A DNA stretch of 64,000 nucleotides, taken from Synechococcus sp. C9 (GTDB lineage Bacteria; Cyanobacteriota; Cyanobacteriia; Gloeomargaritales; Gloeomargaritaceae). This document shows positions 3,832-64,000 of the stretch, one piece after another; position 1 is the stretch's first letter, and the number at the start of each line of letters is the position of its first letter. A program made the translations under genes and the position numbers. The notes beneath the pieces were generated by a model, which saw nothing but the letters and a program-made list of their open reading frames with translations, was not told the origin of the DNA and ran no database searches. The stretch covers positions 496,001 through 560,000 of the forward strand of contig NZ_JALAAD010000001.1 of NCBI RefSeq assembly GCF_022984075.1. The letters are read 5' to 3'.

Positions 3832-5070
3832 ATGGGCATTCCTCTGGCGTGGTTACAGTTATCCCGGGAGCGGATGCGTCTGTTGGTCGCCTTGGCGGGG
3901 ATCACCTTTGCGGATGTGTTGATGTTTGTGCAGTTGGGGTTTCGGGATGCCCTGTTTGAAGCCGCCGTGCTTGTCCATCGCAAATTGCGGGCGGATTTGG
4001 TGCTGATCAACCCCCAATCCCAGGCGTTTTTTGCCATGCAACGGTTTCCCCGCCGCCGCTTGTACCAGGCGTTGAGTTTACCAGAAGTGGCGAGTGTTGC
4101 CCCGTTGTATGTGGACTTAATGCCCTGGAAAAGCCCGGTGTGTCCCCCCACGCCCACAGCTACCAGTTGTACCCGTTCGATTTTGGTGATGGGGTTTGAC
4201 CCGGCGGTTTCCGTGTTGGATTTCCCGGAGGTGGAGGCTAATTTGGCGCAAATACGGCAGGCGGATGTGGTGCTGTTTGACCGGATTTCGAGGGAGGAAT
4301 TTGGCACGGAATTTATCCTGCGGGAATTTGCCAGCGGACGACCGGTACAAACAGAGGTGAATAAACGCCGGGTGACGGTGGGGGGCTTGTTTGAGTTGGG
4401 AGCATCCTTCTCCGCCGATGGGAATGTGATCACCAGTGATTTGAATTTTTTACGGATGTTTCCGGGACGGCAAGCCTCGCAAATTGATGTGGGATTAATT
4501 ACCTTGCAACCGGGGGCGGATGTGGAGCAAGTCCGGGCGAAATTACGGCAATTACTCAACACGGAACTGAAAATTCCCGGTCAATTTCTCTGCCAAGGGG
4601 CGACGGGGGCTTCGGAATTTGCCAACGATGTGTGCATCCTCACCCACGATGAATTTGTGGAATTGGAACGGCATTATTGGGCGACGGGCACTGCCATCGG
4701 GTTTATTTTTGGGCTGGGAACCGTGATGGGATTTGTGGTGGGAATTGTGGTGGTGTATCAGATTCTTTACACGGACGTATCGGATCATCTGGCGGAGTAT
4801 GCCACCCTCAAGGCGATGGGTTACACGGATGGGTATCTGTTAACGGTGGTGTTCCAGGAGGCGATGATTTTGGCGGTGTTGGGCTTTATTCCCGGCTTTT
4901 TGGTCTCTCATGGGTTGTATGCCCTCACCCAGGCGGCGACCCGTTTGCCGATTGCCATGACCCTAGGGCGAGCCACGACCGTTTTTACCATGACGGTGGT
5001 GATGTGTTTTGTGGCGGGGGCGGTATCGGTGCGGCGATTGCAGGCGGCAGACCCGGCGGATATTTTCTAA
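3832..5070 (+). CDS. devC: DevC-like ABC exporter permease (FtsX/MacB-type fold)
   Basis: Inner-membrane permease partner of DevB, 412 residues. The N-terminal transmembrane helix (LLVALAGITFADVLMFVQLGFRDAL) is followed by a large periplasmic domain and three C-terminal helices, ending in the family signature VRRLQAADPADIF. The motif EYATLKAMGYTDGYL between helices 2 and 3 is typical of DevC. Two cysteine pairs in the periplasmic loop (around SPVCPP...SCTRS and FLCQG...NDVC) look like extra disulphide-bearing inserts. The cognate ATPase gene devA, normally next, is absent: the next gene is hisF. Confidence 0.9.
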   Translation: MGIPLAWLQLSRERMRLLVALAGITFADVLMFVQLGFRDALFEAAVLVHRKLRADLVLINPQSQAFFAMQRFPRRRLYQALSLPEVASVAPLYVDLMPWKSPVCPPTPTATSCTRSILVMGFDPAVSVLDFPEVEANLAQIRQADVVLFDRISREEFGTEFILREFASGRPVQTEVNKRRVTVGGLFELGASFSADGNVITSDLNFLRMFPGRQASQIDVGLITLQPGADVEQVRAKLRQLLNTELKIPGQFLCQGATGASEFANDVCILTHDEFVELERHYWATGTAIGFIFGLGTVMGFVVGIVVVYQILYTDVSDHLAEYATLKAMGYTDGYLLTVVFQEAMILAVLGFIPGFLVSHGLYALTQAATRLPIAMTLGRATTVFTMTVVMCFVAGAVSVRRLQAADPADIF

Positions 5071-8227: not shown

Positions 8228-8525
8228 TTTGGGGCACGTTTTATGGAAGGTTCATCTATAGCAATCACACTTGAATTGTGAGTAAAATAACCCGTTTTTA
8301 TATATGGCAATCCTACTCGATTAACAAACAAAAAATCTCCAGAACCAGGGACGGGGGCGGTGCCTTTAGAAATGCCCATGAGATCAGCACGACCTAAAAC
8401 GTTACTAACAGTGGCTAGAGGACCTAATCTTGAGGGGTTGAGAATACTGGCAGATGCGTGTTGAACAACGAGCTAATGGGGATCTAAAACTGATCTGCCG
8501 CCGCTGACCAGGAACCTGATGCAAC
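8228..8525. repeat. Non-coding gap with degenerate miniature repeats
   Basis: A 298-bp gap without a credible gene. It contains a copy of the TAGCAATCCTA-type end (GGCAATCCTACTCGATTAAC near 8305), then the reverse-oriented module CCAGAACCAGGGACGGGGGCGG near 8338-8362 and a TAGAAATGCCC end near 8367-8378. It therefore looks like parts of two miniature-element families fused together. The remainder, 8380-8525, has no structure I can name. Confidence 0.55.
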
Positions 8526-9842
8526 TCAACTAGAACGCAAAACCACTTCCCCATTTTGTACCGCCACCAATTGGATGTCCAACGGGCCAGCGGTGTAGAT
8601 GGGACGGCGAGCCACGGATTGTACCTGCACCACCCCCTTGAGATTTTGCAACTGTTCCACAAATTGCACCAGCGCCACTTGGCTAAAGGAACCCACCTTG
8701 TTGGTCAAAGGGTCGGCGAGGATGCCACTCTGGCGGGCACGGAGATTGGAAGCCAGGAACAACCGGTCCAACTGGCTGAGAATCGCTGGTTCATCCATCG
8801 TCCCCAAGTCCAGGGGAATCTGCGCCACCACCGCCCCGGCGGGAAAAATCAGCCGATTGGGGGTCAGGTCGGTAAAAACCCCCACTTCCGGTTCCCCACT
8901 GGAATAATTGGCAGAGGCCAACACCCGCATTACATAGTCCCGACCGTTGCTGAGGGTATTGACCAGGTTATTGACTTCGGTGGTACTGATGCGAATCCGG
9001 GGGGGATTGGGAATGCTGACGTTGGTTTGACTGAGGCACACCTCCGGCGGACTCTGACTTTGCCCCAGACACCCGGCGACCCGACTGGCTTCCTGGAGGG
9101 TTTGTTCCACCGCTTGGCGCGCCAATTCCTTATCATAAATTGCCCGGATGGTGGCTGTGGCTAAAACCTGTTCCCGCCGGATCGCCACATTTCCCTGGCG
9201 CAGTTGACCGATTTCCTGCTCCAACCGCCCCCGTACCAGTTCCAATTGGGCAATGCTGGTTTGCAGTTGTTGTCCCTCTCGGCGGAGCCGTTCCGCCTGG
9301 GCACGGGCTTGGGCGACCTGGGTCTGGGCCTGTTGCAGTTGGGCTTGCAGTTGACCCCGGTCCTGTTTCAGTTCCTGAATCTGGGCTTCCAGGGTGCGGG
9401 ATTCCTGCTCGGCGGTGGCTAATTTGGCCAAAGCATTTTGGTAGTTGCGGTTGACCTGGGCAAGTTTGGCTTCAATCGCCTTCACATTCCGGTCGGCGGC
9501 CTGGAGTTGGGCTTGGGTGCGTTGGAGTTGGGTGAGGGCGGTGGTCAATTCGGTTTGGGCTTCATTTTTTTGCTTTTCCACCCGTTCCAGGTCTTCCTGG
9601 ATCTGGTGCAGGCGAAACAGGCCATCCCGCAACTGCTGGTCAGCGGCCAAAAGCACCCCCAAGGTGGTGGCGGAAATCACCCCGCCGGTGGCAATGGTGA
9701 CCAATACCGCCGTGGTGCGAGGCCGTAATTTGAATAAACTCAAGCGGGCTTTCCCCACCCGGGTGCCAATCCGATCCCCCAGGGTGGCGATCAACCCCCC
9801 CAGCACCAGAATCACCAGTATTAGGGTGTAACCGGCTACCAC
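8526..9842 (-). CDS. DUF3084 membrane coiled-coil protein
   Basis: A cyanobacterial conserved protein of unknown function, 438 residues from a GTG start. Two N-terminal helices (GYTLILVILVLGGLIATLGDRIG and VLVTIATGGVISATTLGVLLA) flank the conserved cytosolic loop GTRVGKARLSLFKLRPR. A long Gln/Ala/Glu-rich coiled coil covers about residues 80-230. The C-terminal globular DUF3084 region contains NLRARQSGILADPLTNKVGSF. It starts 3 bp after the ligA stop, so it is probably expressed from the ligA transcript. The role is not known; topology suggests an envelope-spanning structural or regulatory protein. Confidence 0.9.
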   Translation of the reverse strand: MVAGYTLILVILVLGGLIATLGDRIGTRVGKARLSLFKLRPRTTAVLVTIATGGVISATTLGVLLAADQQLRDGLFRLHQIQEDLERVEKQKNEAQTELTTALTQLQRTQAQLQAADRNVKAIEAKLAQVNRNYQNALAKLATAEQESRTLEAQIQELKQDRGQLQAQLQQAQTQVAQARAQAERLRREGQQLQTSIAQLELVRGRLEQEIGQLRQGNVAIRREQVLATATIRAIYDKELARQAVEQTLQEASRVAGCLGQSQSPPEVCLSQTNVSIPNPPRIRISTTEVNNLVNTLSNGRDYVMRVLASANYSSGEPEVGVFTDLTPNRLIFPAGAVVAQIPLDLGTMDEPAILSQLDRLFLASNLRARQSGILADPLTNKVGSFSQVALVQFVEQLQNLKGVVQVQSVARRPIYTAGPLDIQLVAVQNGEVVLRSS

Positions 9843-18845: not shown

Positions 18846-20705
18846 TTAACAAATTTTATCATCACTTTCATCCATTTGCTCATTAGTAAACTCCTGTACC
18901 CGAAATTGATTTACTCCTTGATTGACTACCTTAGCAATCGTTGCACTTAAATTATCAAAGTAGGCAGACAATTTGTTCTGAAACTCCAGATTTAAAGTAA
19001 TCAGTTCTTGCATCTTATTAATGCTCCTGATAATTTCTTGCTGATTCAAACTAGAAGCTTCGACAACACTTTGATTTACGCTTTCAAGTCGAGCGAGTAG
19101 TTGGTTATATGTTTCCTGGTTATCTCGGCTAAGGGTCATCAAAACCCCTAGGTTATCAATAATGCTTGTGATTTTTCCCTGATTCAAATTAGAAGCTTCA
19201 ATAATGCTGTGATCTATACTTTCAAGTCGAGCGAGTAGTTGGTTATATGTTTCCTGGTTATCTCGGCTAAGAGTCATCAAACCCCCTAGATTATCAATAA
19301 CGCTTGTGATTTTTTCCTGATTCAAATTAGAAGCTTCAACAACACTTTGATTTACGCTTTCAAGGCGGGCAAGTAGTTGGCTATATGTTTCCTGGTTATC
19401 TCGGCTAAGAGTCATCAAACCCCCTAGATTATCAATAACGCTTGTGATTTTTTCCTGATTCAAATTAGAAGCTTCAACAACACTTTGATTTACGCTTTCA
19501 AGTCGAGCAAGTAGTTGATTATATGTTTCCTGGTTATCTCGGATAAGAGTCATCAAAACCCCTAGGTTATCAATAATACTTGTGATTTTTTCCTGATTCA
19601 AATTAGAAGCTTCAACAACACTTTGATTTACGCTTTCAAGACTATTAGGTAGTTGTCCAAGAATTGCCAGAATGTGATCTAGTACATTAGTGATATTACC
19701 GAATTGCTCAGCGATCCTTTGCAAATTGATTTGTGTCTGACTAGCTTTATCTACAGCTTGAATGAGTTGTGAGAGTTGTCTTACAGACCTACTGAACTGT
19801 TCGGAAAGAACGATTTCTTGTAGAGAACTAACAGCAAGTTCAAAAGTCTGTGAGCTACGTATAAAAGTTCCGCTGACACTGTCAAATCTCATGAATATAT
19901 TATTGGCAAGTTCTACATTTGCTTGATTCATTTGTCTAAGTTGTGCCATTTCCCGCTCAAGCGGTCTTTCGATTGCATCCCTCACAGTTACCTGAAAATT
20001 ATCCAAAAAAATTCTAAAGTTATCTGAAATTGATTGAATTAGTCGTCCCGTAGGATTTTGTCTCTGACCCGCTAGTTTATCAAGGCGAAATTCTAATTCT
20101 GATAAAAGATATTGCTTTGCCAAATCGGTATTCAAGAATGAGTTCGCTAGGGTAACCAATATTCCTAATACCAAGCAGAAAAAGCTAGATACAAAAGCAA
20201 CTGCCATACCCTCTAAGGGCTGTTTAAGTCGTTCAATCAAATCTGTTACAGAAATAGTAGTCGTTGTCGAACTATCTATTTCCATAAGACCACTGGCAAC
20301 ACTACTAAGATTCATAGTAATTCCTAGAAATGTTCCTAATAGACCAATAGCAACTAGTAAGTTTGGGGTAATTCGGGTAAGATGCTCTGCTTTCTCTAGT
20401 GTTAACTTTCGGAAGAGTTTTTCACCAGTAAAGTTATACATTACTAAGGCAACTGTGTTAACATTGTCTAACTCTTCTGCCGAAAGGTTCATGATACTCT
20501 CCCGTAAACTGCGAATGAGTTTTGGGGCTTGAGCACTAAAAGAATCAACAGTCGATGCCCATCGGATAAGGTCTATCAACCTTCGATACAATAACCATCT
20601 TAAAACAAAACTAATTAAAGCAATTACTAACCCTATTCCTAGGAATATCTTCAGTAAGAATGATCTGTCAATATATTCGGTAATTAAACTTATCAGATTA
20701 TCCAT
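18846..20705 (-). CDS. MotA/ExbB/ZorA-like membrane protein with tandem-repeat coiled tail
   Basis: A 619-residue protein from the ATG at 20705, which overlaps the tubulin-like gene stop in ATGGATAA; an in-frame start 39 bp upstream is less likely. Predicted helices lie at about 15-40, 115-140 (with the ExbB/MotA/ZorA signature LLVAIGLLGTFLGI) and 167-190. The remaining 430 residues are a predicted cytoplasmic helical tail. It contains four near-identical 46-residue repeats (ESVNQSVVEASNLNQEK ... RDNQETYNQLLAR) and a degenerate fifth. ZorA of Zorya defence likewise has a stator core plus a long tail. Partner: the OmpA-like protein downstream. Confidence 0.88.
   Translation of the reverse strand: MDNLISLITEYIDRSFLLKIFLGIGLVIALISFVLRWLLYRRLIDLIRWASTVDSFSAQAPKLIRSLRESIMNLSAEELDNVNTVALVMYNFTGEKLFRKLTLEKAEHLTRITPNLLVAIGLLGTFLGITMNLSSVASGLMEIDSSTTTTISVTDLIERLKQPLEGMAVAFVSSFFCLVLGILVTLANSFLNTDLAKQYLLSELEFRLDKLAGQRQNPTGRLIQSISDNFRIFLDNFQVTVRDAIERPLEREMAQLRQMNQANVELANNIFMRFDSVSGTFIRSSQTFELAVSSLQEIVLSEQFSRSVRQLSQLIQAVDKASQTQINLQRIAEQFGNITNVLDHILAILGQLPNSLESVNQSVVEASNLNQEKITSIIDNLGVLMTLIRDNQETYNQLLARLESVNQSVVEASNLNQEKITSVIDNLGGLMTLSRDNQETYSQLLARLESVNQSVVEASNLNQEKITSVIDNLGGLMTLSRDNQETYNQLLARLESIDHSIIEASNLNQGKITSIIDNLGVLMTLSRDNQETYNQLLARLESVNQSVVEASSLNQQEIIRSINKMQELITLNLEFQNKLSAYFDNLSATIAKVVNQGVNQFRVQEFTNEQMDESDDKIC
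19078..19640 (-). repeat. Tandem 138-bp coding repeat within the MotA/ZorA-like tail
   Basis: The unit boundary ACGCTTTCAAGTCGAGC (plus strand) recurs at about 19078, 19216, 19354, 19492 and 19630, an exact 138-bp (46-codon) period. The copies are nearly identical in DNA, indicating recent expansion by slippage or unequal recombination. Whole-codon periodicity means copy number can change tail length without breaking the frame. Confidence 0.93.
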
Positions 20706-25063: not shown

Positions 25064-25502
25064 TTGTAGACACTAATTCTGATGGGTGCAAAGAGTAATT
25101 GTTAAGGTAAGGGTAACGCCACTCCGTTTACTACCATAGCAGTTCTAAATGAATTTATGAATTTAGAATATCGGTCGCAGGAGCACTGCCCTTGTCCTTG
25201 GTTCTGGAAAATTTTTGTTTGTAAATCAAGTAAGATTGCTATACAGTAATCCTAAATAAGAATGGAACAGGGGTCGCAGGGGCACCGCCCCCATAAAAGA
25301 AGCACCTGCGGTGTATGGTTCTGGAAAATTTCTGTATGCCTACGGCACACAAGCTATAGCTAGGTAGGTTAAGGTTGTCGCCTTAAGATTCTGGGAAACC
25401 AATGTGGGGCTACGCCCAGCGACCCATATCATGTCAACCTTTGTATGCTTAGCTATAACGTTAATCAAGTAGGATAGCTATATAAATAAAAAAATATAAA
25501 AA
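25064..25502. repeat. Cluster of miniature repeats, no gene
   Basis: A 439-bp gap with at least three repeat modules: GGTCGCAGGAGCAC...CTTGGTTCTGG (25173-25210); GGGGTCGCAGGGGCACCG...TATGGTTCTGG (25267-25327), where about 20 bp (AAAAGAAGCACCTGCGGTG) interrupts the usual spacer; and an inverted one, ATTCTGGGAAACC...GCCCAGCGACCC (25378-25425). Ends AGTAATCCTAAATAAGAATG (25245) and AAGTAGGATAGCTAT (25467) bracket the inner two. The gap marks the right border of the AT-rich island. Confidence 0.65.
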
Positions 25503-28308: not shown

Positions 28309-28454
28309 AGATGGAACATCATTGTATTTATTAGTTTATTTATTATGAGCAAAAATGGGTCGCAGCCGCCGTTTTGGTTCTCGATAGCCTGCGTGGCGTA
28401 GCCATTAATATAGGCATTCTAGCGACATAACCTGCAATGCGTACAGATAATACA

Positions 28455-28573
28455 TAGCAATCCTAAATGGGAATGAAACAGGGGGTCGCAGGGGTACTGC
28501 CCCCGTCTTTGGTTCTGAAAAATTTTTGTATGCCTACGGCACGCAAGCTAATGCCAATCAAGTAGGATTGCTA
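28455..28573. repeat. Complete miniature element, TIR family TAGCAATCCTA
   Basis: 119 bp bounded by TAGCAATCCTA and its exact complement TAGGATTGCTA. The interior has GGGGGTCGCAGGGGTACTGCCCCCGTC, TTGGTTCTGAAAAATTTTTG and TATGCCTACGGCACGCAAGC. This is the clearest full copy of the family. A degenerate GGGTCGCAG...TTGGTTCT module sits just before it at 28358-28383. The gap 28309-28625 contains no gene. Confidence 0.75.
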
Positions 28574-28625
28574 TAGAGGTGTCCTTATTAATTATTAAAT
28601 TAACAGGGATGAATGGGAACGAAAA

Positions 28626-28958
28626 TTAAGACCGAAAGGCGATGAGAAACTGCTCCAGTCCAAAGCGCAATACGGGAGCCAAAATCGCCACAATCACCCC
28701 AGAAACGATGACATAGCGGGCAAACCCCAACGTATCTTTAGAAAGTTGGTAATAGCGTTCATCCCAGCGCTTCACTTCGGCATTGAGTTCCTGTTTCAGA
28801 CCATCCACTTCCCGTTTTAAGTCGTCCACATCCTGTTTCAAGTCATCCACGTCCCGTTTCAGACCATCCACATCCTGTTTCAATTCGCTCACATCTTGCC
28901 GCAGACCCCGCAATTCTTGTAAAACATCCGCCAGGGTTGGTTCCGAAGGACTATTCAT
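28626..28958 (-). CDS. Heptad-repeat coiled-coil membrane protein
   Basis: A 110-residue protein starting at the ATG at 28958, which overlaps the purM stop in ATGAATAG. A run of perfect heptads ([28 protein letters not shown]) forms a coiled coil over about residues 25-60. A single helix, [20 protein letters not shown], anchors the C-terminus. The repeat is also visible in DNA as a 21-bp period. Similar short coiled-coil membrane proteins are common in cyanobacteria and have no assigned role. Translational coupling to purM is likely, but a functional link is not implied. Confidence 0.8.
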
Positions 28959-34692: not shown

Positions 34693-34927
34693 TCACTAAT
34701 CAATTTCCAAGTAATTAAGTCATAAATTAAAAATTAAGGACATCTCTATTTACTGCCACCACTGGAAGATTATTTCCCTATTGCACAAACGTTCAATAAA
34801 AGGAATTTTTTATAGATTTCTATAGAGCAGTTCTAGCAATTACAAAGTATTATAAATTAGCAGTCGCCGGGGCACTAACGGGTGAGATCGCTATAGTAGT
34901 CAATAGGAGCTTTAATGGATACAACCT

Positions 34928-35638
34928 ATGACTACAGCCGAGGCAAAGGCGGTAATTTATCCCGATAGCGATGGAGAACCTTTGGCAGAGACCCAAACCC
35001 ATGTGTGGGTGATCTTAAGTCTATTAAGTATGCTGAGCCGGTATTTAGGGGAACGGGCGGTGGTGTTTGCTGACCAATTTTTCTATTACATTGAGGGAAA
35101 TCCTAGGGCGAGGGTTGCCCCGGATGTGATGGTAGTCTTTGGGATAGAACCGGGAATGCGCCGCAGTTACAAACTTTGGGAAGAGGGTCAAGCACCGGGA
35201 ATGATTATGGAAGTCACCTCGGAAGGGACGAGGGAGATGGATTGGGGATTTAAGAAAAGGTTGTATGAACAAATTGGGGTCAGGGAGTATTGGTTATTTG
35301 ACCCGTTGGGGGAGTGGATTGAGGGGCAATTGCAGGGTTATCGCTTGGATGAAGATGGCGTATATCGTTCTATCAAGAATCCTGTGAGTGAAGTGTTGGG
35401 TTTGCGTTTGCAACCGGGTATGGGGCGTTTAGATTTGTATCGTTTGGATAACGGGGAAAAGTTGCTCACCCCTGATGAATTAGCGCAGGAGTTAATTCAA
35501 AAAGAACAAGTGTTGGAACAAACTCATCAACAATTAGCACAAAAAGAGCAGGAATTACTCTTAGAACGGCAACGGGCGGAACGGTTAGCGGCATATTTAC
35601 GCAGTCAAGGCATTAATCCTGATGAAATTGGAGGTTAG
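34928..35638 (+). CDS. Uma2-family (DUF820) nuclease-fold protein, divergent first copy
   Basis: A 236-residue protein of the Uma2/DUF820 family, a PD-(D/E)xK nuclease fold abundant in cyanobacteria and of unproven function. Putative catalytic residues: Asp in VAPDVMVVF, Glu in MIMEVTS and Lys in FKKRLYEQIGVREYWLFDP. A C-terminal coiled coil (QKEQVLEQTHQQLAQKEQELLLERQRAERL) ends in SQGINPDEIGG. Its N-terminal 190 residues differ clearly from the next five copies while the tail is the same, suggesting tail exchange by recombination. First of six tandem genes. Confidence 0.88.
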   Translation: MTTAEAKAVIYPDSDGEPLAETQTHVWVILSLLSMLSRYLGERAVVFADQFFYYIEGNPRARVAPDVMVVFGIEPGMRRSYKLWEEGQAPGMIMEVTSEGTREMDWGFKKRLYEQIGVREYWLFDPLGEWIEGQLQGYRLDEDGVYRSIKNPVSEVLGLRLQPGMGRLDLYRLDNGEKLLTPDELAQELIQKEQVLEQTHQQLAQKEQELLLERQRAERLAAYLRSQGINPDEIGG

Positions 35639-35642
35639 GGCG

Positions 35643-36290
35643 ATGACATTAACTCCCAGTCGCAAGCTCATTTATCCTGATAGTGATGGTCAACCGATGG
35701 CGGATAATACCCTGCAATTTCGTTGGATTGTCTTATTCAAAGAGAATTTGGAATGTCTATTTCGGGATAATTTGGATGTATTTGTGGGGGGTGATTTGCT
35801 GTGGTATCCGGTGGAAGGACATCCAGAGATACGGGTTGCCCCGGATGTCATGGTGGTGTTTCATCGTCCCAAGGGGGAGCGGGGTTCCTATCGGCAATGG
35901 GAAGAAAATGGGATAGCACCGCAAGTGGTATTTGAGATATTATCACCGGGAAACCGATTGGCAGAGATGGCAAAGAAATTGGAATTTTACGAGCAGTATG
36001 GGGTGGAAGAATACTATATTTATGACCCCCAATTGAATGAATTAAGTGGTTATCAAAGAGTAGGGAATCGGTTGAGAGTAATTGAGGAGATGAATGGGTG
36101 GGTGAGTCCCCGGTTGGGCATCCGATTTGCATTAACTGATGATGAATTGCTGGTGTATTATCCCAATGGCGAACGGTTCAAGACCACAGTGGAATTGGCG
36201 CAGGAATTAGAACGAGAACGACAGCGGGCGGAACGATTAGCAGCATATTTACGCAGTCAAGGCATTAATCCTGATGAAATTGGAGGTTAG
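35643..36290 (+). CDS. Uma2-family protein, tandem copy 2
   Basis: 215 residues, starting MTLTPSRKLIYPDSDGQPMAD; the ATG lies 4 bp after the previous stop (TAGGGCGATG). Domain residues: Asp in VAPDVMVVFHRP, Glu in VVFEILSPGNR, Lys in MAKKLEFYEQYGVEEYYIYDP. It has the shortest coiled-coil tail of copies 2-6, entering ERERQRAERLAAYLRSQGI almost directly after VELAQELE. Catalytic-type residues are intact. Confidence 0.88.
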   Translation: MTLTPSRKLIYPDSDGQPMADNTLQFRWIVLFKENLECLFRDNLDVFVGGDLLWYPVEGHPEIRVAPDVMVVFHRPKGERGSYRQWEENGIAPQVVFEILSPGNRLAEMAKKLEFYEQYGVEEYYIYDPQLNELSGYQRVGNRLRVIEEMNGWVSPRLGIRFALTDDELLVYYPNGERFKTTVELAQELERERQRAERLAAYLRSQGINPDEIGG

Positions 36291-36294
36291 GGCA

Positions 36295-36984
36295 ATGACA
36301 TTAACTCCCAGTCGCAAGCTCATTTATCCCGATAGTGATGGTCAACCGATGGCAGATAATACCCTGCAATTTCGTTGGATTGTCTTATTCAAAGAGAATT
36401 TGGAATGTCTATTTCGGGATAATTTGGATGTATTTGTGGGGGGTGATTTGCTGTGGTATCCGGTGGAAGGACATCCAGAGATACGGGTTGCCCCGGATGT
36501 CATGGTGGTGTTTAACCGTCCCAAGGGAGAGCGGGGTTCCTATCGGCAGTGGGAAGAAAATGGGATAGCACCACAAGTGGTATTTGAGATATTATCACCG
36601 GGAAATCGGTTGGCAGAGATGGCAAAGAAATTAGAATTTTATGAGCAGTATGGGGTGGAAGAATACTATATTTATGACCCCCAATTGAATGAATTAAGTG
36701 GTTATCAAAGAGTGGGGAATCGGTTGAGGGTGATTGAGGAGATGAATGGGTGGGTGAGTCCCCGTTTGGGCATCCGATTTGAATTAACTGATGATGAATT
36801 GCTGGTGTATTATCCCAATGGGGAGCGGTTCAAAACTACAGTGGAATTGGCGCAGGAATTAGAACAAACTCATCAACAATTAGCACAAAAAGAGCAGGAA
36901 TTACTCTTAGAACGGCAACGGGCGGAACGGTTAGCGGCGTATTTACGCAGTCAAGGCATTAATCCTGATGAAATTGGAGGTTAG
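36295..36984 (+). CDS. Uma2-family protein, tandem copy 3
   Basis: 229 residues. It is nearly identical to copy 2 over the first 190 residues (for example VFNRPKGERGSY instead of VFHRPKGERGSY). The coiled-coil tail contains QTHQQLAQKEQELLLERQR, like copy 1. The DNA of the N-terminal 500 bp is almost the same as copy 4, consistent with a recent duplication. Starts 4 bp after the preceding stop. Confidence 0.88.
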   Translation: MTLTPSRKLIYPDSDGQPMADNTLQFRWIVLFKENLECLFRDNLDVFVGGDLLWYPVEGHPEIRVAPDVMVVFNRPKGERGSYRQWEENGIAPQVVFEILSPGNRLAEMAKKLEFYEQYGVEEYYIYDPQLNELSGYQRVGNRLRVIEEMNGWVSPRLGIRFELTDDELLVYYPNGERFKTTVELAQELEQTHQQLAQKEQELLLERQRAERLAAYLRSQGINPDEIGG

Positions 36985-36988
36985 GGCG

Positions 36989-37720
36989 ATGACATTAACT
37001 CCCAGTCGCAAGCTCATTTATCCTGATAGTGATGGTCAACCGATGGCAGATAATACCCTGCAATTTCGTTGGATTGTCTTATTCAAAGAGAATTTGGAAT
37101 GTCTATTTCGGGATAATTTGGATGTATTTGTGGGGGGTGATTTGCTGTGGTATCCGGTGGAAGGACATCCAGAGATACGGGTTGCCCCGGATGTCATGGT
37201 GGTGTTTAACCGTCCCAAGGGAGAGCGGGGTTCCTATCGGCAGTGGGAAGAAAATGGGATAGCACCACAAGTGGTATTTGAGATATTATCACCGGGAAAT
37301 CGGTTGGCAGAGATGGCAAAGAAATTAGAATTTTATGAGCAGTATGGGGTGGAAGAATACTATATTTATGACCCCCAATTGAATGAATTAAGTGGTTATC
37401 AAAGAGTGGGGAATCGGTTGAGGGTGATTGAGGAGATGAATGGGTGGGTGAGTCCCCGTTTGGGCATCCGATTTGAATTAACCAATGATGAATTGCTGGT
37501 GTATTATCCCAATGGGGAGCAGTTCAAAACTACAGTGGAATTGGCACAGGAATTAGAACAGACTCAGCAAGAGTTGATCCAAAAAGAACAAGTACTAGAA
37601 CAAACTTATCAACAATTAGAACAAAAAGAGCAGGAATTACTCTTAGAACGACAGCGGGCGGAACGGTTAGCGGCGTATTTACGCAGTCAAGGCATTAATC
37701 CTGATGAAATTGGAGGTTAG
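36989..37720 (+). CDS. Uma2-family protein, tandem copy 4
   Basis: 243 residues, the longest copy. The extra length is all in the coiled coil (QTQQELIQKEQVLEQTYQQLEQKEQELLLERQR), an expansion of the heptad-like glutamine units. The nuclease-fold part has the same Asp/Glu/Lys set, with small changes such as ELTNDELLVYYPNGEQFKTT. Same 4-bp intergenic spacing as its neighbours. Confidence 0.88.
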   Translation: MTLTPSRKLIYPDSDGQPMADNTLQFRWIVLFKENLECLFRDNLDVFVGGDLLWYPVEGHPEIRVAPDVMVVFNRPKGERGSYRQWEENGIAPQVVFEILSPGNRLAEMAKKLEFYEQYGVEEYYIYDPQLNELSGYQRVGNRLRVIEEMNGWVSPRLGIRFELTNDELLVYYPNGEQFKTTVELAQELEQTQQELIQKEQVLEQTYQQLEQKEQELLLERQRAERLAAYLRSQGINPDEIGG

Positions 37721-37724
37721 GGCG

Positions 37725-38435
37725 ATGACATTAACTCCCAGTCGCAAGCTCATTTATCCCGATAGTGATGGTCAACCGATGGCAGATAATACCCTGCAAT
37801 TTCGTTGGATTGTCTTATTCAAAGAGAATTTGGAATGTCTATTTCGGGATAATTTGGATGTGTTTGTGGGGGGTGATTTGCTGTGGTATCCGGTGGAAGG
37901 ACATCCAGAGATACGGGTTGCCCCGGATGTAATGGTGGTGTTTCATCGTCCCAAGGGGGAGCGGGGTTCCTATCGGCAGTGGGAAGAAAATGGGATAGCA
38001 CCACAAGTCGTATTTGAGATATTATCACCGGGAAATCGGTTGGCAGAGATGGCAAAGAAATTGGAATTTTATGAGCAGTATGGGGTGGAAGAATACTATA
38101 TTTATGACCCGCAATTGAATGAATTAAGTGGTTATCAACGAGTAGGGAATCGGTTGAGAGTAATTGAGGAAATGAATGGGTGGGTGAGTCCTCGTTTGGG
38201 CATTCGATTTGCATTAACTGATGATGAATTGCTGGTGTATTATCCCAATGGGGAGCGGTTCAAATCCACAGTGGAATTGGCACAGGAATTAGAACAAACT
38301 CACCAGGAATTACTCCTAGAACGGGAACGGGCGAACCAAGAAACAGCGCGAGCAGAACAAGAACGACAACGGGCGGAACGGTTAGCGGCGTATTTACGCA
38401 GTCAAGGCATTAATCCTGATGAAATTGGAGGTTAG
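37725..38435 (+). CDS. Uma2-family protein, tandem copy 5
   Basis: 236 residues. The core matches copy 2 (VFHRPKGERGSY, RFALTDDELLVYY). The tail has a distinct sequence, ELLLERERANQETARAEQERQRAERL, before the common AAYLRSQGINPDEIGG end. The mixture of copy-specific core and tail variants suggests gene conversion among the array. Confidence 0.88.
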   Translation: MTLTPSRKLIYPDSDGQPMADNTLQFRWIVLFKENLECLFRDNLDVFVGGDLLWYPVEGHPEIRVAPDVMVVFHRPKGERGSYRQWEENGIAPQVVFEILSPGNRLAEMAKKLEFYEQYGVEEYYIYDPQLNELSGYQRVGNRLRVIEEMNGWVSPRLGIRFALTDDELLVYYPNGERFKSTVELAQELEQTHQELLLERERANQETARAEQERQRAERLAAYLRSQGINPDEIGG

Positions 38436-38439
38436 GGCG

Positions 38440-39108
38440 ATGACATTAACTCCCAGTCGCAAGCTCATTTATCCCGATAGTGATGGTCAACCGATGGCAG
38501 ATAATACCCTGCAATTTCGTTGGATTGTTTTATTCAAAGAGAATTTGGAATGTCTATTTCGGGATAATTTGGATGTGTTTGTGGGGGGTGATTTGCTGTG
38601 GTATCCGGTGGAAGGACATCCAGAGATACGGGTTGCCCCGGATGTAATGGTGGTGTTTAACCGTCCCAAGGGGGAGCGGGGTTCCTATCGGCAGTGGGAA
38701 GAAAATGGGATTGCACCGCAAGTGGTATTTGAGATATTATCACCAGGAAACCGATTGGCAGAGATGGCAAAGAAATTGGAATTTTATGAGCAGTATGGGG
38801 TGGAAGAATACTATATTTATGACCCCCAATTGAATGAATTAAGTGGTTATCAAAGAGTAGGGAATCGGTTGAGGGTGATTGAGGAAATGAATGGGTGGGT
38901 GAGTCCCCGTTTGGGCATCCGATTTGAATTAACCGATGATGAATTTCTGGTGTATTATCCCAATGGGGAACGGTTCAAAACCACAGTGGAATTGGCACAG
39001 GAATTAGAACAAACTCAGCAAGAATTACTCCTAGAACGGCAACGGGCGGAACGATTAGCGGCGTATCTACGCAGTCAGGGAATTAATCCTGATGAAATTG
39101 GAGGTTGA
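38440..39108 (+). CDS. Uma2-family protein, tandem copy 6
   Basis: 222 residues, last complete copy. The core carries VFNRPKGERGSY and RFELTDDEFLVYYP; the tail is short (QTQQELLLERQRAERL). All putative active-site residues remain. The stop here is TGA rather than TAG, followed by GAGCG and the remnant of a seventh copy. Confidence 0.88.
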   Translation: MTLTPSRKLIYPDSDGQPMADNTLQFRWIVLFKENLECLFRDNLDVFVGGDLLWYPVEGHPEIRVAPDVMVVFNRPKGERGSYRQWEENGIAPQVVFEILSPGNRLAEMAKKLEFYEQYGVEEYYIYDPQLNELSGYQRVGNRLRVIEEMNGWVSPRLGIRFELTDDEFLVYYPNGERFKTTVELAQELEQTQQELLLERQRAERLAAYLRSQGINPDEIGG

Positions 39109-39113
39109 GAGCG

Positions 39114-39161
39114 ATGACATTCACCCACAGTCGCAAGCTCATTTATCCCGATAGTATTTGA
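39114..39161 (+). pseudogene. Remnant of a seventh Uma2 copy (first 15 codons)
   Basis: An ATG with the family's N-terminus (MTFTHSRKLIYPDSI) and then TGA. The first 14 residues match MTLTPSRKLIYPDS of copies 2-6, after which homology ends abruptly and the DUF3445 gene begins. This is the breakpoint of the tandem array. Confidence 0.75.
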
Positions 39162-39172
39162 AAAGTGCCCTG

Positions 39173-40195
39173 ATGAATAATTGCGATTACTTGGTGCAGG
39201 CATTACCGGTTGACCAATTGCCGGATGCACCCCGCTATTTCCCGATGGAAAGGGGACGGTATGAGGTCAAACCAGGGTTAATTAAATTCGGCACTGATTT
39301 AGGTCAAGGAGTCTGGGATCAACGGGTATTTCACATTGATGGGAATTTCAGCCATTACTACCAAATGAAACAATTAGCTCGCCGGGAATGCCTAGAAAAA
39401 TATTATCAAACCCAGAATTTTACCCCGGAAGTTGAGCAGGTGATTGCTAAATTTATCCTTGAACATTTAGCCAAAGAATATCCCCAATATTTTCAGATCA
39501 ATGTACAATCAGATGGCTGGATATTTCATAATCAATTAACCGGCGAAATCCTATATTTTGACGCTAATTATCACTTAAAAACGACAACTGGTTTAACCCT
39601 AGAACTTCCCCCCTATCGTTCGGCTTTGGATGCCCTTGCCCATCAAGTTCAAGAGGATATAACTGTGGTCATTCAAAGGGGGGAACGGCATTGGGTGAGT
39701 GCCATTCATGCCTGTTTTCCGAACCATTGGGCAGTACAGGCGAAAATTGGTCGGGAATTTGCCCAAATCCATGCCCCTGTTGCCGGGATGACCGCCATGA
39801 ATCGCCGGGGGGGTGCCCTCGTGCAAACGATGATTACCCAGCCGCCGATGGTGCGCTTTGCCTGGGGGTTGAGTACGGATACCCGGCTGAACCATCACCC
39901 GGAATCCCCGCCCCACGTTGATCCCCAACGATGGCAGGGGCGCAATTTTCATCCCCATGACCCCCGGTTGTACCTACGGGTGGAACGGCAGGTGATTTGG
40001 GGGTTTCCAGCGGTTAATGCGGCTTTGTTCACCATTCGCACCTATTTTCAGGATGTGGCAGTGCTGAAGCAAAACCCAACCCAATCTGCCCTCCTCCAGT
40101 CGGCGATTCAATCCATGTCACCCGCATCTTTGGAATATAAAGGTCTGGCGGATCAAAAAGCAGAAATTCTGGCTTGGTTGGGCAGTCCTGGATAA
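39173..40195 (+). CDS. DUF3445 protein, related to haem-dependent oxidative N-demethylase
   Basis: A 340-residue protein of the DUF3445 family, whose characterised member is the alpha subunit of haem-dependent oxidative N-demethylase (HODM). Family blocks: FPMERGRYEVKPGLIKFG, HWVSAIHACFPNHWAVQAKIGREFAQIHAPVAG (with candidate haem-ligand His), RFAWGLSTDTRLNHHPE, YLRVERQVIWGFPAVNAALFTIRTYF. Start at ATG 39173; an in-frame start 15 bp upstream is possible. No reductase or demethylase beta/gamma subunit gene is adjacent, so whether it works alone or with other partners is open. It stands between the Uma2 array and flv1. Confidence 0.85.
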   Translation: MNNCDYLVQALPVDQLPDAPRYFPMERGRYEVKPGLIKFGTDLGQGVWDQRVFHIDGNFSHYYQMKQLARRECLEKYYQTQNFTPEVEQVIAKFILEHLAKEYPQYFQINVQSDGWIFHNQLTGEILYFDANYHLKTTTGLTLELPPYRSALDALAHQVQEDITVVIQRGERHWVSAIHACFPNHWAVQAKIGREFAQIHAPVAGMTAMNRRGGALVQTMITQPPMVRFAWGLSTDTRLNHHPESPPHVDPQRWQGRNFHPHDPRLYLRVERQVIWGFPAVNAALFTIRTYFQDVAVLKQNPTQSALLQSAIQSMSPASLEYKGLADQKAEILAWLGSPG

Positions 40196-42054: not shown

Positions 42055-42150
42055 CTATGGCAATCCTACTTGATTAACCAACAAAAAATGCTGGAGAACC
42101 AAGACGGGGGCGGTGCCCCTGCGACCCATTTTTAGAAGTGCCCATAATCC
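42055..42150. repeat. Hybrid miniature-repeat copy downstream of flv1
   Basis: Reads GGCAATCCTACTTGATTAACC, then GGAGAACCAAGACGGGGGCGGTGCCCCTGCGACCC, then TTTTTAGAAGTGCCC, and a second AATCCTACTCGATTAACC. It combines the end of one family with the end of the other around the shared palindromic module. The rest of the gap 42151-42256 is featureless. Confidence 0.65.
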
Positions 42151-42449: not shown

Positions 42450-42941
42450 CTAACTTGTGCAATAATTACGAACGACTTCATCAATGGTGGTGCCAGGGGG
42501 AGCGTACATCCTCAATTTTTTTAATGCGCTAAAGTCATGCTCAATGTCATTGAGGTCTGGGGAATAAGTTGGCAAAAATAATACGATATGCCCCGCCGCT
42601 TCCACTAATTCTCGAATGCGTTTCTTACGATGAATCGGTGCGTTGTCCAAAATTAACACCGATAGTCTCGTCAATGCTGGTAATAAATGCACCTCTAACC
42701 ATCGCTCAAAAGTCACCGCATCTAAACTGCCGTCAAATAGCATGGGAGCAATTAAATCCTTGCTATGTTTGCGCCGACCCGCTACGAGATTCTCTCGTTT
42801 ATACCGCCGTCCCTGACGCTCTCCATAAATCTTTTTTCCCCGTTTAGCCCAACCATAAATCAGACTGACGAACCTCTCAAAGCCCGTCTCATCAATAAAT
42901 AGCAGACTTTCTATCCCATACTTCTTGATTAATTCTCTCAA
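42450..42941 (-). CDS. IS630 transposase, catalytic part
   Basis: DDE domain of the transposase: LLFIDETGFERFVSLIYGWAKRG (first Asp), VLILDNAPIHRKKRI (second Asp) and LPTYSPDLNDIEHDFSALKK (final Glu). All three catalytic residues are present. The frame is open upstream without a Met as QFRYRERN...YYRTLRELIKK-like sequence back to the A8 tract, so it is expressed by frameshift from the preceding frame rather than from its own Met. Confidence 0.88.
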   Translation of the reverse strand: MRELIKKYGIESLLFIDETGFERFVSLIYGWAKRGKKIYGERQGRRYKRENLVAGRRKHSKDLIAPMLFDGSLDAVTFERWLEVHLLPALTRLSVLILDNAPIHRKKRIRELVEAAGHIVLFLPTYSPDLNDIEHDFSALKKLRMYAPPGTTIDEVVRNYCTS

Positions 42942-42960
42942 TGTCCGGTAGTGTAATATT

Positions 42961-43296
42961 CTATCGGAATGATTTCTTTCTCGATAGCGAAACTGTTTTT
43001 TTTCTCGTGATATTTAGCCGCTTCAATTGATAATATATTGAGCTTGGCACTACCCCAAACTCTTGTGCTCTTTGCTGAAGAGTCTTATCGGGGTATTTCT
43101 CCACATCTTGATTCAGTCTGGCAATATCGATTTTCCTCTTCCTTCTCACTACTCTCGTGCGCTCCAGATTGGGTCTGTCTAGCCACCGGTACACGGTTGC
43201 TCGGTTGATGCCGAAGATTCGCGCCGCTTTCGTGATACTATTCCCGTTCTCAATGAAACTTATCACCTTTTTCCGTAAATCCAGACTGTAACACAT
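42961..43296 (-). CDS. IS630 transposase, helix-turn-helix part
   Basis: MCYSLDLRKKVISFIENGNSITKAARIFGINRATVYRWLDRP is the IS630 N-terminal helix-turn-helix. A second HTH-like block is TLQQRAQEFGVVPSSIYYQLKRLNI. The frame ends 20 codons... after an eight-A tract (T8 on plus at 42996-43003); skipping one A there continues into the catalytic part. The slip site is analogous to that in the IS5 element. Confidence 0.87.
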   Translation of the reverse strand: MCYSLDLRKKVISFIENGNSITKAARIFGINRATVYRWLDRPNLERTRVVRRKRKIDIARLNQDVEKYPDKTLQQRAQEFGVVPSSIYYQLKRLNITRKKTVSLSRKKSFR

Positions 43297-63803: not shown

Positions 63804-63827
63804 TCATATCTATCTGATTTATCTGAC

Positions 63828-64000
63828 ATAGCAATCCTAAATAACAATGGAATAGGGGTCGCAGGGCACCGCCCCGTTCTGGTTCTGCAAAATTTCTGCT
63901 TGTTAATTTTGTTAATTAATCATTAGGACTACCATAGCAGTTAAAAAAAAAATAGGGTCGCAGGGCACCGCCCCGTTCTGGTTCTGCATCGGAGTCACGA
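63828..64000. repeat. Two further repeat modules at the window end
   Basis: First copy: TAGCAATCCTAAATAAC at about 63830, then GGGGTCGCAGGGCACCGCCCC and GTTCTGGTTCTGCAAAATTTCTG. Second copy: GGGTCGCAGGGCACCGCCCC and GTTCTGGTTCTGCATCGG (63956-63990). The palindromic cores are identical, showing local duplication. The window ends in non-coding sequence. Confidence 0.65.

Follow-up and report, generated by a model that had tools for sequence, protein, structure and literature searches.

A tandem array of Uma2 genes in Synechococcus sp. C9 with near-identical cores and C-terminal tails that differ in length by whole heptads

Proteins of the Uma2 family (PF05685) are heavily duplicated in cyanobacteria and their role is unclear. 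As COG4636, they were described as likely solo toxins, found mostly in cassettes of paralogous genes (Makarova et al. 2009, PMC2701414). The 2.96-Mb genome of Synechococcus sp. C9 contains 54 Uma2 genes that score above the family cut-off, several of them in tandem. Here, we consider one such group, located in a 64,000-nucleotide stretch of contig NZ_JALAAD010000001.1 (C1:496001-560000, forward strand), referred to below as the window. The group is composed of six nuclease-fold open reading frames (ORFs), i.e., copies 1-6, which are arranged head to tail on the plus strand at window positions 34928-39108 and encode proteins with C-terminal tails that differ in length by whole heptads.

An earlier reading, made from the sequence alone (referred to as the sequence-only reading), had described genes of about 650-730 bp separated by 4-5 bp, near-identical cores in copies 2-6, a divergent core with the same tail in copy 1, and tails of mosaic composition. 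Each of these features was recovered. The ORFs are 648-732 bp long and are separated by 4 bp (5 bp ahead of a terminal stub), and all six match PF05685 with 67-69 bits compared to a curated cut-off of 27 (Table 1). The core DNA of copies 2-6 is 94.4-98.5% identical. The proteins encoded by copies 1 and 3 are 52% identical overall, where the last 120 nt of the two genes are 99% identical and the sequence upstream of that only ~40%. The tails are mosaics drawn from a small set of heptad words, which recur across the copies. The sequence-only reading had noted the unequal tail lengths, but not that they are all separated by exact multiples of 7 residues. No non-Uma2 genes and no mobility genes were found inside the array.

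Table 1. Positions of the array genes and of associated features in the window
Feature	Position	Strand	Description
Uma2 copy 1	34928-35638	+	PF05685 8.2e-19; divergent core, 3 extra heptads
Junction of copies 1 and 2 (example)	35628-35645	+	GGAGGT serving as codons and ribosome-binding site
Uma2 copy 2	35643-36290	+	PF05685 1.1e-18; 0 extra heptads, shortest tail
Uma2 copy 3	36295-36984	+	PF05685 4.6e-19; 2 extra heptads
Uma2 copy 4	36989-37720	+	PF05685 1.3e-18; 4 extra heptads; protein modelled
Copy 4 tail and cap	37530-37717	+	QELEQ TQQELIQ KEQVLEQ TYQQLEQ KEQELLL ERQRAER, then LAAYLRSQGINPDEIGG
Uma2 copy 5	37725-38435	+	PF05685 1.9e-18; 3 extra heptads
Uma2 copy 6	38440-39108	+	PF05685 8.2e-19; 1 extra heptad
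15-codon stub of a seventh copy	39114-39161	+	MTFTHSRKLIYPDSI, then stop codon; start preceded by GGAGGT
HODM_asu-like gene (PF11927)	39173-40195	+	Likely start ATG 39173; N-terminus MNNCDYLVQALPVDQLPDAPRYF matches that in VI4D9

Tail length was defined as the distance from the end of the core profile to a cap motif, L-A-x-x-L-R-x-x-G-[I/V]-[D/N]-P, and was classed modulo seven. In a first set of proteins, 61 of 63 distinct tails fell into one class, and in an independent set, which comprised cyanobacteria, Chloroflexota, a planctomycete and other organisms, all 76 tails were in register with 0-9 extra heptads. When all sets were combined with further arrays, the register was the same in 160 of the 162 distinct tails, which came from several phyla, and a tree of the cores required at least 111 changes in tail length. 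The two tails out of register belong to similar genes in two relatives and probably reflect one event. The length of the core varies by 1-2 residues, i.e., in-frame insertions and deletions other than heptads do occur elsewhere in the protein. Within this genome, 11 of the 12 matches to the cap motif coincide with Uma2 genes (the remaining match, at C1:2016077, is weak and unassigned), and the idea of a cap common to other families in the genome was discarded on these grounds. No title or abstract that deals with heptads or tail length of Uma2 proteins was found among the papers searched, of which not all full texts were read, and the heptad rule appears to be new; tandem Uma2 cassettes were already known.

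In a single-chain AlphaFold2 model of copy 4 (mean pLDDT 92.9), the tail is predicted to form one continuous helix (residues 182-233), which breaks at the GINP sequence of the cap. Across 160 proteins, a core-side Leu, Ile or Val (a large hydrophobic residue at a frequency of ~0.89) and the leucines of the cap (0.99-1.00) are found at fixed register positions. One hydrophobic residue per heptad is present in 84% overall and in 100% in this genus. At the DNA level, a 21-bp periodicity was detected in copies 3-5 using a tandem repeat finder.

The tails of copies 2-6 all differ in their number of extra heptads (Table 1). A homologous array composed of 10 copies is found in a relative, Gloeomargaritales cyanobacterium VI4D9 (OV696605.1; G002), which is assembled as a single 3.16-Mb contig and is placed in the same genus by the classification tools used; two other relatives, G004 and G001, harbor 3 and 2 copies, respectively. 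The eight intact core copies in VI4D9 have 0, 6, 7, 1, 4, 5, 9 and 8 extra heptads, again all different, and the one repeated length (4) belongs to a copy that is broken by a short insertion. Among ~104 pairs in eleven arrays whose cores are near-identical, 4 had the same length compared to 10-17 expected (P <1e-5 to 0.009), where the test was designed after the pattern had been seen, its strength depends on which of four null models is used, and the outcome could in part reflect identical copies that were collapsed in some assemblies. A second array in the same genome, which belongs to another Uma2 subfamily (three tandem genes at C1:937750-940342 and one at 1250889-1251548; L038, L039 and L016), has near-identical cores and tails that differ by 0, 7, 14 and 28 residues. 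Ten tandem Uma2 genes were also observed in Arthrospira sp. PCC 9108 (L209, 1738500-1747700); their core proteins are 99-100% identical and their tails are of seven different lengths, all whole heptads apart.

Core identity is 94-98% within the VI4D9 array and 88-91% between the two genomes, close to the 90-92% found for flanking genes between the species, and a comparison of core sites between the two arrays gave 22 fixed differences, compared to just 6 polymorphic sites common to both. Tail types, on the other hand, are common to both species: copies 2, 6 and 4 resemble VI4D9 copies 2, 5 and 6, respectively. Because the two species have tail types in common and because copies 1 and 3 share a tail on unlike cores, tails are considered to move between copies while the cores are homogenized. 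A positional counterpart of copy 1 heads the VI4D9 array, and a counterpart is also found in G004. A local recombination signal is clear within the VI4D9 cores (0 of 2000 permutations), and was not significant within the five cores of copies 2-6 in the window (P=0.16, permutation). The sequence-only reading is supported in part: the tandem array, the mosaic heptad tails, the exchange of tails between unlike cores, the concerted evolution of the cores and the remnant of a seventh copy are borne out. The suggestion that the array is actively expanding found no support; the copies are not brand new, with synonymous divergence (dS) of up to 0.19 among them.

The junctions between the genes are equally regular. 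Internal genes end with GAA ATT GGA GGT TAG, followed by GGCG (in one case GGCA) and the next ATG, such that at all five internal junctions the Gly-Gly codons GGAGGT double as a strong ribosome-binding site 7 nt before the next start. Because the final codons of a gene serve its successor in this manner, the copies are probably translated in a coupled fashion, as judged from the junction sequences. At some of the VI4D9 junctions the sequence is GGAGGATGAGGGTGATG, which serves the same dual purpose, and the last array copies in VI4D9 and G004 end with GIDPQQIP and are devoid of the GGAGGT motif. In an array from an unrelated cyanobacterium (L087) and in a gene pair from Chloroflexaceae (L145), a ribosome-binding-like sequence is located inside the end of the preceding gene, and stop and start overlap; in the Arthrospira array it is located in a 42-bp gap. 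Ahead of copy 1, at 34905-34928, an AGGAG sequence that resembles a Shine-Dalgarno site is better positioned for an out-of-frame ATG at 34915 than for the conserved start at 34928, and a short leader ORF may overlap the start of the gene.

The modelled core of copy 4 superimposes on known Uma2 structures (9y1l, Z 15.8; 6okh, 14.8; 1wdj, 13.3; 3ot2, 13.1). These solved members of the family (also named DUF820 or COG4636) have the same core fold and the same active-site pattern as the array proteins. They are composed of ~150-190 residues, and the matched ranges stop near model residue 172, ahead of the tail; the family model (PF05685) also lacks the heptad-stepped tail and the cap. Among 78 proteins, D68 and E98 are invariant and K112 is nearly invariant, i.e., acidic and lysine residues of PD-(D/E)XK type, which by analogy with the family would form the catalytic triad, and the array proteins may act as nucleases. 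The ratio dN/dS within the array is 0.044, which indicates strong purifying selection, and the mean dS is 0.146 within the array compared to 0.468 between species.

These observations are explained somewhat better than evenly by a model where, in an operon-like array, a constant core is joined to a C-terminal helix of variable length, which would form a parallel coiled-coil dimer, where selection acts on the phase of the helix and leaves its length free. According to this model, the tail helix would leave the core at the conserved leucine, continue unbroken and end in the conserved cap. Because the tail changes only by seven residues (21 bp), the leucine next to the core and those of the cap would be held on one face at any length. 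New tail lengths would arise through exchange between the 21-bp repeats in the tails of neighboring copies, and the cores would be homogenized through conversion or repeated re-amplification. Strict multiples of seven are expected for a supercoiled helix pair held in a fixed phase, and are expected neither for a flexible linker nor for a helix on its own. Tail length would in this view be a tuned property that is locked in phase, and the differing lengths may sort partners, set the reach of the protein or simply record recombination between 21-bp repeats. The proposal, made in the sequence-only reading, that the heptad tails specify multimerization receives indirect support from the common register, the predicted helix and the end leucines in that register, but the canonical a/d pattern is absent from the middle of the tail.

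The latter point is one of several that weigh against a dimer. In the middle heptads a single position is hydrophobic (Ala or Leu), and a second one is found at the two ends, next to the core and next to the cap; hydrophobic residues at both a and d along the full length, as in a canonical parallel coiled coil, were not found in the tail. Because the middle heptads do not have this second position, any coiled coil is predicted to be weak, and the tail is possibly a single charged helix. Furthermore, the helix is that predicted from a single chain, and the heptad rule could be partly mutational in origin since exchange between 21-bp repeats yields only multiples of seven.

The mutational argument may be taken further. 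If the tail were a neutral repeat tract, altered by slippage of or unequal exchange between 21-bp repeats, then the steps of seven would simply mirror the repeat unit and the distinct lengths would mirror a high mutation rate. The tails are indeed built from repeated heptad words and 14-residue pairs, and both the 21-bp periodicity and the large number of length changes on the tree fit such a scenario. The register is, however, maintained also in short, repeat-free tails (0 extra heptads) and in dissimilar tails across phyla, while the length of the core drifts; in addition, pairs of equal length are rarer than expected by chance even though recent duplicates should share length. A neutral origin is possible but rather doubtful. 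The same degree of doubt applies to the view, in line with the proposal for COG4636 (PMC2701414) and with the large number of Uma2 genes in this genome, that the array represents solo toxin cassettes or selfish genes, i.e., a stock of stress- or toxin-type paralogues with tails that have no specific role. This view leaves the heptad rule unexplained, and the array contains no mobility genes and is composed of copies that are under strong purifying selection.

A lone helix turns by ~100 degrees per residue and loses ~20 degrees in phase per heptad. If the tail were a rigid spacer, where one stable helix determines how far the cap lies from the core and a dimer is not required, strict sevens over 0-9 heptads would for this reason be unexpected, while a supercoil expects them. 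Such a spacer would fit the heptads rich in Glu, Arg and Gln with one small hydrophobic residue, as well as the single helix in the monomer model, but is considered improbable. Finally, near-identical tandem repeats are prone to being collapsed or expanded during assembly, the possibility that the sequence-only reading had named as its own refutation, and the present array was judged from the assembled sequence; the synonymous differences among the copies and the homologous array with common tail types in the independent single-chromosome genome of VI4D9 make an artefact highly implausible.

Profile searches identified a Pterin_4a gene upstream of the array and the HODM-like gene downstream. 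No antitoxin gene adjoins the array and no methyltransferase was found among the nearest profiled flanking genes (partners located farther away are possible), which does not fit a type II toxin-antitoxin or a restriction-modification system, and a partner of either kind at the flanks was rejected. A plasmid or phage origin was also rejected, with no plasmid match and no relative among viral contigs. The best PADLOC match of the array proteins covers part of the core and is to a candidate family, PDC-S03 (1e-13 to 1.8e-15); it may reflect mere Uma2 homology. The array gave no meaningful match in NCBIfam, the window gave no match in Rfam, and scans of the array for promoters and terminators yielded no more hits than did shuffled sequences.

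The array ends in a stub, as the sequence-only reading had stated, but a rearrangement breakpoint accounts for it better than a simple array end. Alignments of the HODM gene with its counterparts in VI4D9 and G004 begin only at 39185 or 39200, and the upstream neighbor of the gene in these relatives is not a Uma2 gene (it ends with ...VTETGSEVLSAAVPK or similar). The Uma2 arrays of G001, VI4D9 and G004 stand beside a convergent pilin-like gene. The different neighbor of the HODM gene and the location of the arrays in the relatives imply that the array or its surroundings were moved in this genome, and the stub is best explained, from the sequence, as what is left of a seventh copy that the breakpoint truncated at codon 15. 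The move may have gone in either direction, with the VI4D9 array found at a different place and no Uma2 gene at the pilA locus of the present genome.

Repeats and putative mobile elements are also found in the surroundings. At 42450-43296 on the minus strand there is a transposase-like gene, apparently of IS630 type, which is split into two frames and is flanked by two occurrences of tagtaatttcaaataagtttgcaac, at ~42260 and ~43395. A dispersed repeat of ~120 bp at 28454-28574 has 12-bp inverted ends (ATAGCAATCCTA / TAGGATTGCTAT); similar pieces are found near 8303-8364, 25166-25292, 42056-42127 and 63821-63907, as well as beside the VI4D9 array, and from its sequence the repeat looks like a family of small mobile elements. 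The insertion that breaks copy 7 of the VI4D9 array recurs just upstream of that array (L081, reverse-complement ~9640-9770 and ~4600-4730), which suggests that a small mobile element was active at that locus. Elsewhere in the window, 21- and 42-bp repeats at 28789-28907 possibly encode another heptad stretch, and a 138-bp unit is repeated in tandem at 19033-19640 (4.4 copies, 92% matches).

Parallels to the individual traits are found in other systems. The tandem paralogous arrangement is that of the Uma2 cassettes known from cyanobacteria (PMC2701414). In Thermosynechococcus TA-1, the rpn genes form tandem arrays and uma2 is expanded (PMC9403480), i.e., as here, a nuclease superfamily has expanded in a cyanobacterium, in that case a thermophilic one; the passages of that report covered here contain no analysis of tail lengths or heptads. 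The chicken BG multigene family encodes, in 21-nt units, heptad-repeat tails that presumably dimerize as a coiled coil, and length changes were attributed to unequal crossing-over (PMC5043582). The BG proteins are vertebrate membrane receptors in which the repeats are exons, and the likeness is one of analogy only. In sensor histidine kinases, e.g., YF1, the heptad-periodic linkers tolerate length steps of seven because the coiled coil must hold the phase between two domains (PMC6798134). Those linkers transmit signals between domains of one receptor, whereas in the Uma2 array a short cap would be locked in phase with the nuclease-fold core, with a different length in each tandem copy.

A tail that is fixed in phase and free in length offers a testable handle on tail function, and it makes the purpose of near-identical arrays testable as well, i.e., by asking whether lengths pair only with themselves. 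It is conceivable, if unlikely, that the lengths constitute a code, where one core is carried on tails that each have their own number of heptads, such that tails of equal length pair with themselves or each tail reaches a different distance. If this were true, selection would prevent copies of one array from sharing a length, conversion would hold their cores identical, and one operon would provide several insulated versions of one enzyme.

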